This document shows, piece after piece, positions 12,865 through 17,556 of a stretch of 32,594 nt of DNA (position 1 is the first letter of the stretch; each line of letters opens with the position of its first letter). A program made the position numbers and the translations under genes. The notes beneath the pieces are model-generated. The model searched no databases. It saw only the letters and a list, made by a program, of their open reading frames with translations, and was not told the origin of the DNA. The stretch is taken from the NCBI GenBank assembly GCA_014382695.1, contig JACNJF010000156.1:1-32594 (forward strand). Direction: 5' to 3'. The DNA is from Gammaproteobacteria bacterium (GTDB lineage: Bacteria; Pseudomonadota; Gammaproteobacteria; GCA-001735895).

Positions 12865-14337
12865 TTAACAGATCGAGTCGTTATTCAGCCGGGTAATTTC
12901 GGTAACTTCTTTTTTTAAATTAATAAATAAATCGAACAGATCCGGGTCGAAATGTGTGCCGCGTCCTTTGGTCATGATCTGTATCGCTTCATCGATGCTC
13001 ATTTCACTTTTATACGCTCTCTTATGGATCAGTGCGTCAAACACATCCATGATTGCAGCGATGCGTGCGCCTATCGCAATCTGTTCACCGACCAGTCCCT
13101 GTGGGTAGCCGCTACCATCCCATTTTTCATGATGATTAAGGGCAATTTCACGCGCCATCTGCACCAGAGATGATTTTGAGTTGGAGAGTATTTTGCCGCC
13201 AATCTCGGTGTGCGTCTTCATGATCGTAAACTCATCATCGGTGAGTTTGCCGGGTTTTTTGAGTATCGCATCAGGGATGCCTATCTTGCCAATATCATGC
13301 ATCGGCGCAGCGATTCGGATTTCATCAATTTTATCCTGTTTCCAGCCCAGATGAGTGGCCATCAGTTCGCAATACAGGCCCAGGCGTCGAATGTGCGCGC
13401 CGGTCTCACCACTGTCCTTACTGTCGGCCGCACACACCAGTCGTAACGCAATCTCTTCTTCTCGGGCTCGAATCAGTTCGGTACGTTTGTGGACTTCTTT
13501 TTCGAGTATATTATTCAGCAGTACTTCATCGCGCCCACGTTGCAGGAAATCGTGATTTTGCTGATAACTGGCATCCTGAATCGCAAGGAATAGCAGCTTG
13601 TGCTTGTCCCAGTTGATGGCAATAGCTTCGAGTGCAACATTATCACCATGCGCCAGAGTTTCGATCCACGGACCTGAGGTGATGCGTTGATGATTGATGG
13701 CTAGATCCCATAACTGCTGAGCATCGATCAGGAAGTTTTCGATAAACAGAAATTTATCCTGTGGATAAACTTTTTTCTGGTTGGCAAAGGCTTCCGGAAA
13801 TATCTGCTGGAAGTTATCGGAAACGGGGTGCAGTAATTCAAATGAGCCATCTTTATTCTGATGCAACGCCATCATGTCGAGAGCTTCGAAGAAAGAGCAA
13901 TGCAGTTTGGAGCTGGAATCTTTTGGCGTTTGCAGACTCTGTTTGTGCTGTTCCATTTCATGTTGCAGCAGGCGCAGTTCATTGGCTTTCTGGCGCGCCT
14001 GGCTTTGCCATTCAAGATCCTCAGTTTTATCGACCAGTACTGCCCAGGTCGTATCATTATCCTGAAACAGGTGAATATCGACGACTTTGTTATCGTTGAC
14101 ATGCCACGAAGGGATGAACTCGTAACCGCTGTCGAGCGGTAGCATTCCAGAAAGAAACAGCGCCTCGTTGAGTATGTTTTCAGCGGTTTTCCAGTCTGGC
14201 AAACCGAGGTCGATGATATTTCCGCTACGATTGAGCAGTACCCCATCCCGGTCGATCGCGAGATAGGCAAAGGTATGTGTCTCCAGTGTGATCTGCAGTA
14301 TTTTATTGATCACATTGTCGGGGTACTGGGTTTTCAT
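12865..14337 (-). CDS. HD-GYP domain protein with PAS-like N-terminus, probable c-di-GMP phosphodiesterase
   Basis: 490 residues. The C-terminal HD-GYP domain (about 295-475) has HDIGK at 347-351, HHEKWDGSGYP at 402-412 and later GRGTHFDP. All the metal and GYP residues that define c-di-GMP-degrading HD-GYP enzymes are visible. The N-terminal 110 residues look like a PAS-type sensor (FAYLAIDRDGVLLNRSGN). A second alpha/beta region at about 145-255 could be another PAS-like fold, and a coiled-coil linker runs from about 265 to 300. It has no receiver domain and no membrane segment. It begins 6 bp after the small GTPase gene, so it is the last gene of that operon and a likely output of the GTPase module. 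Confidence 0.88.
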   Translation of the reverse strand: MKTQYPDNVINKILQITLETHTFAYLAIDRDGVLLNRSGNIIDLGLPDWKTAENILNEALFLSGMLPLDSGYEFIPSWHVNDNKVVDIHLFQDNDTTWAVLVDKTEDLEWQSQARQKANELRLLQHEMEQHKQSLQTPKDSSSKLHCSFFEALDMMALHQNKDGSFELLHPVSDNFQQIFPEAFANQKKVYPQDKFLFIENFLIDAQQLWDLAINHQRITSGPWIETLAHGDNVALEAIAINWDKHKLLFLAIQDASYQQNHDFLQRGRDEVLLNNILEKEVHKRTELIRAREEEIALRLVCAADSKDSGETGAHIRRLGLYCELMATHLGWKQDKIDEIRIAAPMHDIGKIGIPDAILKKPGKLTDDEFTIMKTHTEIGGKILSNSKSSLVQMAREIALNHHEKWDGSGYPQGLVGEQIAIGARIAAIMDVFDALIHKRAYKSEMSIDEAIQIMTKGRGTHFDPDLFDLFINLKKEVTEITRLNNDSIC

Positions 14338-14343
14338 CGCAGG

Positions 14344-14844
14344 TTACAGGGTTTGCTGCAGTTTTGTGGCCAGCGCCAGATAAGCATCTTCCACATTGGC
14401 ACTATCTTTGGCACTGGTCAGCATGATGAACCATCCATCCTGTTTGAGCTGTTCCAGACGGGTCTGATCAATCGTCCAGTTGTCGGCAAGATCGGCTTTA
14501 TTGACCAGCAGGATAAAAGGAATTTCGCCCACTTCGCGATCCACTTTCTGTTTCAGCATGAGTGCGATATCGAGAGTTTCCGCTCGGGTGCCATCGGCTA
14601 CCAGAATGACGCCGGACGAGCCGCGCAGGTAGGAGCTACGCACCTCGATGAATTCGTCTTCTCCTGCCAGATCCCATAAAATCAGTTCCAGCGTCTGGTC
14701 GTTGATGCTGACTGACTTTTTGTCAATCTTGACACCCAGAGTGGTCTGATATTTTTCACTGAAAATACTGTTTACATATTGCTGGACGAGTGAGGTTTTT
14801 CCAACGGCAAAGGCTCCCAGCATGCAAACTTTCATCTTGATCAT
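14344..14844 (-). CDS. Ras/Rab-like small GTPase
   Basis: 166 residues, a complete single-domain Ras-superfamily GTPase. G1 is GAFAVGKTS (10-18), the switch I threonine is in TTLG (34-35), G3 is DLAGED (58-63), G4 is NKAD (115-118) and G5 is TSAK (143-146). G3 differs from the eukaryotic DTAGQE: the catalytic Gln is Glu62, which predicts slow intrinsic hydrolysis and need for a partner. There is no C-terminal lipidation Cys. Prokaryotic relatives are MglA and the poorly known Rup families. It sits between the OmpA-domain protein gene (13 bp upstream) and the HD-GYP gene (6 bp downstream). A second ATG three codons in is an alternative start. Confidence 0.9.
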   Translation of the reverse strand: MIKMKVCMLGAFAVGKTSLVQQYVNSIFSEKYQTTLGVKIDKKSVSINDQTLELILWDLAGEDEFIEVRSSYLRGSSGVILVADGTRAETLDIALMLKQKVDREVGEIPFILLVNKADLADNWTIDQTRLEQLKQDGWFIMLTSAKDSANVEDAYLALATKLQQTL

Positions 14845-14857
14845 GATCTTAACGCCT

Positions 14858-16930
14858 TTAGTTTTGGAAAGGTTTTCCGATAGAAACGGAAAAGGATACT
14901 CTTCGATTATAGCGTTGTTCTGCTAAAGATTTTTCTTTTTCAACCGGGGCTTCCAGCCCCTTGATTTGCAGGTGTCTGGGGCTGATTCCACTATTAACCA
15001 GATGCTGAGCAACATACTCGGCACGTTCAATGCTGAGGAACACATTATTCTGAAAGTTACCCATCGAATCTGAGTGTCCCTGTATCATGATCTCTACGGG
15101 TTTTTCTAACTGCTCCGCCAGCAGGACGATCTTTTTGGCAAGCGACGCTAAATGGTTAAAAAGATCGCTCGCATCATAGTTATAGGAGGCTGCGGCATCG
15201 AAGAAAACCATCTCTTTTTCCAGCAGTTGAATCTGCTGTTGCAGTTTTTCAGTGTCAATGTTGATTAACTGTGTCGTATCCAGTTGCCGGATGGCGGTAT
15301 AGCTGGCGATAGACGATTGCAGTGTTTTTATCCATCCATCACTAGCCTGTCCACGCGCACTCAGAATGCCATTCTGCAGGCTCAGGGTAACGCTAGCAGG
15401 GGCATTCAGCAGCGTCAGGTCAAAGGCACTGGTTAGTTGTGAGTCATCATAGGACCGGATGCCCTCAATACTCAACGCCTTTGCCCTTGTCCGTTCGATC
15501 CAGTCCTGCAGGGCGCTACCGGTGGCCTGCAGATGGCCTTTGTCTAAATCGAGTGCCAGCTTTACGCCGGGCGGCGGGTTCAGTTCGGAGAGATCAATCC
15601 GGTCGCTGAGCTGACTGCTGTCAATCTGGTCGATACCGGAAATTAAAGGCGCCATAGTAAGAAGCCGGGTTACCTGCTGTGGGCTGGCATAGCCGCTGAT
15701 TTTTAATAACGACCCTTTAATCTCCAGCTTCACATATTGTGGAGGTTGAAGGATCTGTTGCATTCTTTGCTCGATAAAGGGGCGATCCAGCGAATGATAA
15801 GGTTCAAACAGTAGCTGGATATTGTCGGTGTTTAAGGTGGTAAGCGCGATGTAGTTTTGCGGATTGCGTGATAGAGGATCCCTGAGCCCCCTGATGGTCA
15901 TAGAGTCGCCATTATATTTCACCTGGGTAATTACATAACCGGGTTCCCTTTCCAGTAACGCAATGTAATCCCGTTGCTGCATGCTCAGGTAGAGCTCAGA
16001 AATAGCCCAGTAAGCCAGCAGAATGAATATTACCAGCCAGATCAGTTTGGTCTTAAGAGGAATTCCTTCCTGTTTGGTGATGTAACCGGATTGCATACAG
16101 GGTTGTAATACATCCCGGCAGGCTTCAAACGGTGCTGTGTCGGACCTGAAACTGTTCAGCTCCGGTTCGAACTGTGACTGGATATCCTCCAGCGCCTGTT
16201 GAAGGTTGGCGCGCAAACTGGCCGGTGCATCACCACGTATCGCGACCGCCAGGATGGCATCCGGGCTCTGTTCTATCCAGATCGAGAAATCACCCACCTG
16301 TATGCTGTCCAGTGCCTGACGGTTTTTTACATCAAACGAATCGCCGACAAAATCACCGATCGCGCTCAGCATGGAAGACACCATGTCGGCATTCTGGCTC
16401 TGGTTTTCCGGTAGCTCCAGATGACTCAACAGCAGTCCGGTATTGCGGTGAATCAGGAATGCCTGTTCTACGCGGAACTGCAGGCTGTGCAGAAGCACGA
16501 TCTGTGCAAACGGAATGCCGGTACGGATAGATTCGAGGCGCCATTTTATACCCTGCCAGGAAAGGCCATACTCCAGCACCTGATTCAGCGACTGCATCAT
16601 CTGGCGGAAGGTTTCGGAAATCGACTTGCGGATTGCCGGACCAATCACCGGAAACAGGGCATTCGCGAACTTGTTGATGTCGCGCTTGATCGACAGCCGC
16701 ACTATCTCTTCCACCGTCGGTATCATCGCCTCCGATAGCCGGTCGCCCTGTTGCGCACTGATCTTCATGGCCTGGGGTAGAATCCCGCCTATTTCATGGG
16801 ATAATTTTTCCGGGCTATCGAGTTTTTCGGCAAGCTGTTCCAGCTTTTCAATGTTGGGGCCGACCAGCAGGCGGCGCAACTCATCGAACTCACTCAGCTC
16901 AGTGGGGCGGGTTTCATTCATTAGAGACAA
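14858..16930 (-). CDS. One-TM OmpA-domain protein with cytosolic Roadblock/longin-like domain and four BON-like repeats
   Basis: 690 residues in four parts. (1) The N-terminal cytosolic region includes a helical part (about 1-135) and residues 152-255, whose pattern VEQAFLIHRNTGLLLSHL, helix, VGDFSIWIE, AILAVAIRG, helix resembles Roadblock/longin folds that bind small GTPases. (2) There is one transmembrane helix at about 294-312. (3) Four degenerate repeats of about 45 residues (327-371, 396-440, 454-499, 511-555) follow, with pattern V.L.L..G.L.A.G.A, like BON domains. (4) The C-terminal OmpA peptidoglycan-binding domain (about 575-685) has GHSD at 618-621 and Arg636. The topology places OmpA in the periplasm. 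It follows the coiled-coil gene by 15 bp and precedes the GTPase gene by 13 bp. Function is inferred. Confidence 0.85.
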   Translation of the reverse strand: MSLMNETRPTELSEFDELRRLLVGPNIEKLEQLAEKLDSPEKLSHEIGGILPQAMKISAQQGDRLSEAMIPTVEEIVRLSIKRDINKFANALFPVIGPAIRKSISETFRQMMQSLNQVLEYGLSWQGIKWRLESIRTGIPFAQIVLLHSLQFRVEQAFLIHRNTGLLLSHLELPENQSQNADMVSSMLSAIGDFVGDSFDVKNRQALDSIQVGDFSIWIEQSPDAILAVAIRGDAPASLRANLQQALEDIQSQFEPELNSFRSDTAPFEACRDVLQPCMQSGYITKQEGIPLKTKLIWLVIFILLAYWAISELYLSMQQRDYIALLEREPGYVITQVKYNGDSMTIRGLRDPLSRNPQNYIALTTLNTDNIQLLFEPYHSLDRPFIEQRMQQILQPPQYVKLEIKGSLLKISGYASPQQVTRLLTMAPLISGIDQIDSSQLSDRIDLSELNPPPGVKLALDLDKGHLQATGSALQDWIERTRAKALSIEGIRSYDDSQLTSAFDLTLLNAPASVTLSLQNGILSARGQASDGWIKTLQSSIASYTAIRQLDTTQLINIDTEKLQQQIQLLEKEMVFFDAAASYNYDASDLFNHLASLAKKIVLLAEQLEKPVEIMIQGHSDSMGNFQNNVFLSIERAEYVAQHLVNSGISPRHLQIKGLEAPVEKEKSLAEQRYNRRVSFSVSIGKPFQN

Positions 16931-16945
16931 AATGACCTGGTGAAA

Positions 16946-17515
16946 TTACGCTTCCGAATTGATCTGTAACGCCAGCGTATTCAGCATCTCTGCCAGCACC
17001 GATTTGTCGACCTTGCCGCTGGATAGATCCTGTTTGTAATCATCCAGACGTTTGCGGGTCTGTTCGATCTGACTGGCCAGTTCAGTATTAAAGTCCTGAC
17101 TTTGTTTAAGCATCTTCTGATTGGTTTCGCGTGTCTGTGTATCCAGCGTACTTCCCAGCTCGCTGATTTTCTGATCGATCTGGCGAACGTTTTTACTGAT
17201 CAGCTCATCCAGGTTGTCCATTTCATTGACGCGGGTCTTTTCTTCACTGGACAGTTTGCTGCCCAGAATTTCAATTTCACTTTCGAGAAAGGTTTGCAGT
17301 GACTCAATCTGCAAAGCGTTTTCCTTACGCAGGTTGGAAAGATCACTCGCGATGCGTTCTTCCAGTTGATTAAACTTGCGATCGTAGTCGCGCATCTGGT
17401 TGCCAAACAGGATATCTCTAATCTTGTCGACATTGGTCAGATCAGCATTCTCCGGCATGGCAGGTACTGTAGCTGGTTTCGGTTCCTCGGTGTTTTTAGT
17501 TTTTTTATCCATCAT
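16946..17515 (-). CDS. Coiled-coil protein, first gene of the GTPase-OmpA-HD-GYP operon
   Basis: About 189 residues of unknown family. A Pro/Glu-rich N-terminus is followed by a long heptad-patterned helix (FNQLEERIASDLSNLRKENA onward, to about residue 165) and a short C-terminal helical segment. There is no signal peptide or membrane helix. GAGGAG sits 3 nt before the ATG at 17513-17515 and 6 nt before the adjacent ATG at 17510-17512; either may be used. A TTG further upstream (17536) would place the ribosome site inside the gene and is rejected. Tight spacing with the next gene (15 bp) makes it part of the same system. It may be a scaffold or GTPase effector, which is inference. Confidence 0.75.
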   Translation of the reverse strand: MMDKKTKNTEEPKPATVPAMPENADLTNVDKIRDILFGNQMRDYDRKFNQLEERIASDLSNLRKENALQIESLQTFLESEIEILGSKLSSEEKTRVNEMDNLDELISKNVRQIDQKISELGSTLDTQTRETNQKMLKQSQDFNTELASQIEQTRKRLDDYKQDLSSGKVDKSVLAEMLNTLALQINSEA

Positions 17516-17556
17516 GGTCTCCTCTGGTGCGGTCAATTAGGATGATAGCAGCGATT

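Follow-up and report, generated by a model that had tools for sequence, protein, structure and literature searches.

This locus raises the question of what forms the cytoplasmic part of an OmpA-type protein that is encoded directly before a Ras-like small GTPase, and how that part might be related to the GTPase. The original prediction had placed a Roadblock/longin-like domain there, at residues 152-255 (16165-16476 of the window, which is the whole 32,594-nucleotide stretch of gammaproteobacterial DNA analyzed). These coordinates are right to one base (~16166-16477), and the segments quoted with them, QAFLIHRNTGLLLSHL (residues 156-171), GDFSIWIE (213-220) and AILAVAIRG (225-233), were all found in the protein.

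The gene cluster and the layout of the OmpA-type protein

Four co-directional genes are tightly packed between ferrochelatase upstream and citrate synthase downstream. The gaps between them are ~15, 13 and 6 nt, which makes an operon likely. In order of reading they are:

16946..17536, minus strand: coiled-coil protein, the cluster's first gene (homologue directly upstream in 153/162 testable domain-GTPase pairs)
14858..16930, minus strand: OmpA-type protein, 690 aa (open reading frame; Pfam OmpA; cytoplasmic part from AlphaFold2 (AF2) and Foldseek)
14344..14844, minus strand: Ras-like small GTPase, 166 aa, Group 1 Rup type (Pfam Ras, 4.1e-32)
12865..14337, minus strand: output protein with a predicted N-terminal PAS fold (residues ~7-135) and a C-terminal HD-GYP domain (315-467) (Pfam HD_5, 6.2e-38; AF2; Foldseek)

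An annotated example is carried by Mesorhizobium pWSM1497, where the products read hypothetical protein, OmpA family protein, Rab family GTPase and adenylate/guanylate cyclase. The motif (I/L)R.(I/L)L.G occurs both in the coiled-coil protein (16946-17536) and near the N-terminus of the OmpA-type protein (16843-16903, both minus strand). The two versions read VDKIRDILFG and FDELRRLLVG, and comparison of the profiles gave P=0.0019, which makes the likeness only suggestive; the two proteins might bind one common partner.

The OmpA-type protein starts with TTG, with an in-frame ATG at residue 4, and is laid out from its N-terminus as follows:

16520..16903, minus strand: helical N-region, residues 10-137 (alignment A1; AF2 helices of low to moderate confidence)
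16097..16510, minus strand: predicted Roadblock/longin-fold domain, residues 141-278 (AF2 topology; best 50 PDB fold matches; profile similarity to MglB-type Roadblocks)
16337..16390, minus strand: central helix a2 of that domain, residues 181-198 (mean information 3.29 bits; invariant M187, A190 and F194)
15989..16045, minus strand: single transmembrane (TM) helix, residues 296-314 (hydropathy 2.05)
15161..15958, minus strand: periplasmic linker with repeated, BON-like 'PP..V.L....G.L...G.A..W' units (by eye in the sequence)
14903..15136, minus strand: OmpA C-terminal peptidoglycan-binding domain, residues 599-676 (Pfam PF00691, 1.4e-11; motif)

The OmpA domain alone was recognized by Pfam in this protein. 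It carries the motif GHSD..G....N..LS..RA, with both diaminopimelate-site residues, Asp and Arg, in place. One TM-type segment was found in 67/78 homologues, and its N-side was the more positive in 46/71. From these sequence features the N-terminus of the TM helix is probably inside, and the Roadblock/longin domain is predicted to be cytoplasmic. The original idea of a platform sitting directly on the cell wall is to be modified in that the domain itself would lie inside the cell, with only a tether, made of the TM helix and the periplasmic OmpA domain, reaching the wall; some relatives are without OmpA or without the whole anchor.

Linkage of the conserved unit to the GTPase

We sampled the family by scanning with the GTPase, which gave 80 loci from Gammaproteobacteria, Cyanobacteria, Bacteroidota, Acidobacteriota, Desulfobacterota, Nitrospirota, Meiothermus, Chloroflexota and others. 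Directly ahead of the GTPase, ~75 of them encode a homologue of residues 1-290; for two loci without it (L093, L085) the domain was found elsewhere in the genome. The domain was present in 51 of 398 Pseudomonadota genomes, and in 46 of these 51 matches the GTPase followed 0.7-2.1 kb downstream on the same strand. Of the other five, two are cut by the end of a contig (G281, G335), in one (G070) the GTPase extends past the retrieved sequence, and in two (G320, G103) no GTPase match was detected. Among genomes without the domain the GTPase was also missing in 30/31, the exception being G031. Outside Pseudomonadota, in the phyla of the four centre genomes, taken as such, the domain occurred in 34/292 Cyanobacteria, 14/375 Bacteroidota, 20/376 Acidobacteriota and 12/375 Desulfobacterota. 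The non-redundant domain-GTPase pairs numbered 189, and in 123 of them (two thirds) at most 30 nt lie between the two genes. The Ras-like GTPase follows the conserved unit in nearly every genome checked; at the level of the genes, the GTPase link proposed at the outset is strongly supported genetically by the Pseudomonadota counts and the collected pairs.

A natural fusion of domain and GTPase was sought and not found; two candidates (L028, L086) were rejected as overlapping frames. Single loci depart from the pattern in other ways. In G031 (C59:1599-2069) the GTPase is present but no domain protein could be detected, and in G103 (C11) the reverse holds. One genome (G218:C20:15698-16120) has two copies of the domain, the GTPase frame beside one of them being broken by four stop codons, and in the Desulfobacterota sample (L264/L343) a relative lies inside an open frame of 3116 aa.

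The domain is located where the original prediction had put it, but residues ~152-255 are too narrow an extent: the conserved unit covers ~280 residues and includes the helical N-region (~10-137) ahead of the Roadblock/longin domain. Conservation peaks at residues ~95-233. The invariant residues include R101, S124, W130 and R131 in the helical N-region (alignment A1), and M187, A190, F194 and G233 in the domain; conservation is thus high in both parts. Among the predicted elements it is strongest in helix a2, with 3.29 bits compared to 1.2-3.3 in other elements, and in strand b1. In an alignment of 64 homologues from many phyla, VEQVFLIHR.TGLLL, DADLVS.MLTAIQDF..DSF and G.L.IWIEQGP.A.LA..IRG are near-invariant, a pattern that is therefore not due to chance.

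The anchor is far more variable. The usual layout among relatives is domain, TM helix, periplasmic repeats and OmpA, and Pfam BON matches the region equivalent to the linker only in cyanobacterial relatives. OmpA is missing in Meiothermus relatives, a Dehalococcoidales relative (L089) ends in a C-terminal TM tail, and minimal Bacteroidota versions of ~280 aa have genes that overlap the GTPase gene (L322:4378-5217 and L323:4378-5226, minus strand). Since the pair is kept while the TM-OmpA anchor varies or is absent, it is the Roadblock/longin unit, not OmpA, to which the GTPase is linked. We conclude that the conserved core is the domain plus the GTPase, and that the anchor is optional. A divergent second cyanobacterial family (L206, L203, L225; neighbors L202-L225) has the order domain-TM-BON-BON-OmpA in proteins of 700-980 aa, directly before a Ras-like GTPase.

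Predicted fold of the cytoplasmic domain

Sequence searches gave this domain no name. Pfam and NCBIfam scans of the 690-aa protein and 65 relatives returned only scattered chance-level matches to it, and neither database holds a curated family covering the ~280-residue unit. Roadblock/LC7 (PF03259) had no match in the protein or in the host genome and was absent from the families reported for the 65 relatives; canonical Roadblock genes, sought in the host and its relatives, were not found. A profile search of PDB sequences with the domain gave no match either. Comparison of the domain profile (188 aligned sequences) with MglB-type Roadblocks, in turn, gave a weak but colinear similarity (P=4.3e-4, probability 34%), running from VEQAFLIH through the last strand.

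The fold is given here as predicted by AF2 from an alignment of the 65 relatives (287-aa model; positions shifted by +3 to protein numbering). The elements are a1 141-149, b1 150-161, b2 167-172, a2 181-198, b3 209-212, b4 215-221, b5 225-233, a3 237-253 and a4 266-278. Confidence (pLDDT) was 88-95 over b1 and b4-a4 and ~57-66 over the b2-a2 loop and a2, and pTM for the whole model was 0.49. The predicted topology of residues 141-278, a-b-b-a-b-b-b-a-a, contains the b-b-a-b-b-b-a core of the Roadblock/longin superfamily. The strand-helix-strand-strand-helix pattern read from the sequence at first is real, but the full order has more strands, and helices on both flanks. The helix predicted ahead of b1 (141-149) would fit Roadblock and the further helix predicted after a3 (266-278) would fit longin, so that the domain may belong strictly to either; in longins the N-terminal helix is lost and an additional C-terminal helix replaces it (PMC10933270).

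When the model was compared to the PDB with Foldseek, the best 50 matches were all Roadblock/longin, with probability 1.00, E of 9e-5 to 2e-3 and TM-scores by target length mostly of 0.50-0.67. They include RagA/Gtr, LAMTOR, Ego3, TRAPP subunits, AP sigma chains, Mon1-Ccz1, Fuzzy/Inturned, MglB, Streptomyces Roadblock/LC7 and Asgard Roadblocks. Alignments were longer to AP-sigma and TRAPP, and the rmsd was tighter to MglB. The domain may also be similar to archaeal Roadblock-like proteins.

Coevolution within the domain agrees with the model. In a mean-field analysis of 182 pairs, the strongest intra-domain couplings fit the predicted hairpins (W218-I231 and I217-A228 for b4-b5; D208-I219 and L207-I217 for b3-b4) and the packing of a3 onto b5 and b1 (V229-L243, L227-L247, L159-I250). 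Collectively, the AF2 topology, the fold matches and the colinear profile similarity uphold the Roadblock/longin-like fold first proposed, and we regard it as very likely for residues ~141-278.

A putative GTPase platform and its known counterparts

The window GTPase has the G3 sequence WDLAGED, with no equivalent of Gln61, and in 84 aligned GTPase sequences the 12 commonest G3 types are all WD(L/I)xG(E/D)D. Hydrolysis by Group 1 Rup GTPases, being without Gln61, needs help. The N-domain of the output protein was modeled with a pLDDT of 91 and matched mostly PAS structures in Foldseek, which suggests a PAS fold, new here. Its Q116 is conserved in at least 90% of alignment A3 and is taken to be the conserved glutamine for which Wuichet & Sogaard-Andersen 2014 (PMC4316618) proposed catalysis in trans. 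In cyanobacterial loci (L032-L034, L049 and others) the PAS-fold N-domain is a separate gene of ~130 aa followed by a kinase-like gene, which makes it an exchangeable module.

The explanation that we favor, and consider probable, is that the 690-aa protein is a membrane- and wall-anchored Roadblock/longin partner platform of the adjoining Group 1 Rup GTPase, that it controls the state and place of this GTPase, and that the GTPase signals in turn to the output protein's PAS domain. The central helix forms the dimer in Roadblock proteins (PMC10933270; also MfpD, PMC13015309), and a2 and b1 are the most conserved elements here; we infer a dimer, most likely formed through a2, on which the Rup GTPase would dock at the inner membrane. 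By analogy with MglB-MglA and with longin dimers and Rab, the platform may set the nucleotide state of the GTPase, through GEF and/or GAP help, as well as its working place. The periplasmic OmpA domain would tether the complex to peptidoglycan, and the state of the envelope could reach the GTPase via the TM helix. Once loaded with GTP, the GTPase would pass the signal on to the PAS domain of the neighboring output protein, here an HD-GYP protein and thus a candidate for c-di-GMP breakdown. We also count in favor of a wall-anchored platform that the host is without any Pfam Roadblock protein.

An alternative that we hold to be considerably less probable, yet the strongest of those considered, is that the Roadblock/longin domain only dimerizes or clusters the OmpA protein, and that the GTPase docks on the helical N-region, the coiled-coil protein or the output PAS domain. 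The helical N-region belongs to the same conserved unit and has the invariant R101, W130 and R131, the near-invariant Q116 of the PAS domain is taken to be the residue put forward for catalysis in trans in the 2014 paper, and inter-protein couplings between domain and GTPase (182 pairs, Neff ~119) lay scattered and formed no clear patch on the switch regions. However, no elements of the protein are more conserved than b1 and a2 of its Roadblock/longin part, the ~280-aa versions retain this domain alongside the GTPase, and GTPases sit on Roadblock/longin dimers in a conserved orientation (PMC10933270; also MfpD, PMC13015309). Besides the scattered couplings, points against the favored reading are the low AF2 confidence over a2 and for the whole model, the two unpaired genomes (G103, G031) and the presence of longin domains in proteins without a role in GTPase regulation, such as SNAREs (PMC10933270).

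The fold match itself could be generic, reflecting another five-stranded alpha/beta fold such as profilin or PAS with no evolutionary tie to Roadblock/longin. Roadblock, longin and profilin do have a common core (PMC10933270), and Pfam and PDB sequences gave no match beside the 34% of the profile comparison. We nevertheless judge this improbable. The best 50 Foldseek matches contained no PAS or profilin entries, and the output N-domain from the same operon, run through the same pipeline as a control, returned mostly PAS, with Roadblock entries at lower TM-scores (~0.35-0.43), so Roadblock is not the pipeline's default answer. The profile similarity is, moreover, specific to MglB-type Roadblocks, the controls giving P of 0.048 (PAS), 0.11 (GTPase) and 0.26-0.65 (reversed profiles). 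Least probable of all is a MotB/TolR-like wall-anchored stator or envelope-integrity protein whose cytoplasmic part contacts other membrane proteins, the GTPase being merely co-transcribed: the TM-OmpA layout is the same and MotB-family and YiaD models match the OmpA region, but those matches span only ~residues 546-690, outside the cytoplasmic domain, and the GTPase follows in very diverse phyla, also where the OmpA part is missing.

The predicted fold in the constant neighbor provides a concrete candidate for the Rup regulator and would extend to Rup GTPases the rule that holds for MglA, Rag and Rab, and the wall-anchored layout offers a physical route from peptidoglycan through a cytoplasmic Ras-like switch to second-messenger enzymes. 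As Rup is the prokaryotic group closest to Rab/Ran/Ras/Rho (PMC4316618), the pairing bears on the origin of eukaryotic GTPase-platform pairs. More tentatively, and with somewhat less than even expectation, we propose that the platform on which Rup GTPases act is a Roadblock/longin one anchored in the wall, and that it relays the state of the envelope to c-di-GMP, cyclase or histidine-kinase outputs. It would then be the bacterial counterpart of Rab-longin/Ragulator control and the regulator that the Rup family has been missing, and Rab/Rup-type GTPases would have been paired with Roadblock/longin platforms in bacteria for much longer, and far more widely, than MglA-MglB shows.

The Group 1 Rup operon has been described before (Wuichet & Sogaard-Andersen 2014, PMC4316618), with a coiled coil, a conserved domain-TM-OmpA protein, a Ras-like GTPase without the G3 glutamine and an output protein with a conserved N-terminal glutamine. 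The window has the same neighbors, a G3 without glutamine and a glutamine in the output N-region. That paper gave the conserved domain no fold, whereas here it is predicted to be Roadblock/longin and the output N-domain PAS; it reported MglB coupling for 0/121 of the Rup family, whose GAP or GEF was then not known. In the literature that we searched, no OmpA-type or Rup-associated protein has been described as carrying a Roadblock/longin domain, and no later account of the conserved domain's fold came up. Three points are new: the predicted Roadblock/longin fold of the conserved domain, the predicted PAS fold of the output N-domain, and the finding that domain and GTPase are constantly paired.

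In Myxococcus and Thermus, MglA/MglB likewise pairs a Ras-like GTPase with a Roadblock-fold protein encoded beside it, and MglB structures (1j3w, 3t12, 3t1r) are among the Foldseek matches of the domain. The MglB dimer platform restrains switch I (GAP), and its C-terminal helix drives exchange (PMC11016934). In contrast to the domain described here, MglB is small, soluble and recognized by Pfam Robl_LC7; the present domain goes unrecognized, is extended by a helical region on its N-terminal side and by additional helices on its C-terminal side, is in most cases joined to TM-OmpA, and has a GTPase partner of Rup rather than MglA type. Ragulator/Rag, TRAPP and Mon1-Ccz1 of eukaryotes are also membrane-associated Roadblock/longin platforms for Rag or Rab GTPases and are among the best fold matches, but they are multi-protein organelle complexes with no peptidoglycan anchor, and their sequence similarity to the domain is undetectable. 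MotB and other OmpA-family wall anchors have the single TM helix and periplasmic OmpA domain in common with the 690-aa protein; here, by contrast, no MotA partner lies in the cluster, and the cytoplasmic part is the ~280-residue unit tied to the GTPase.
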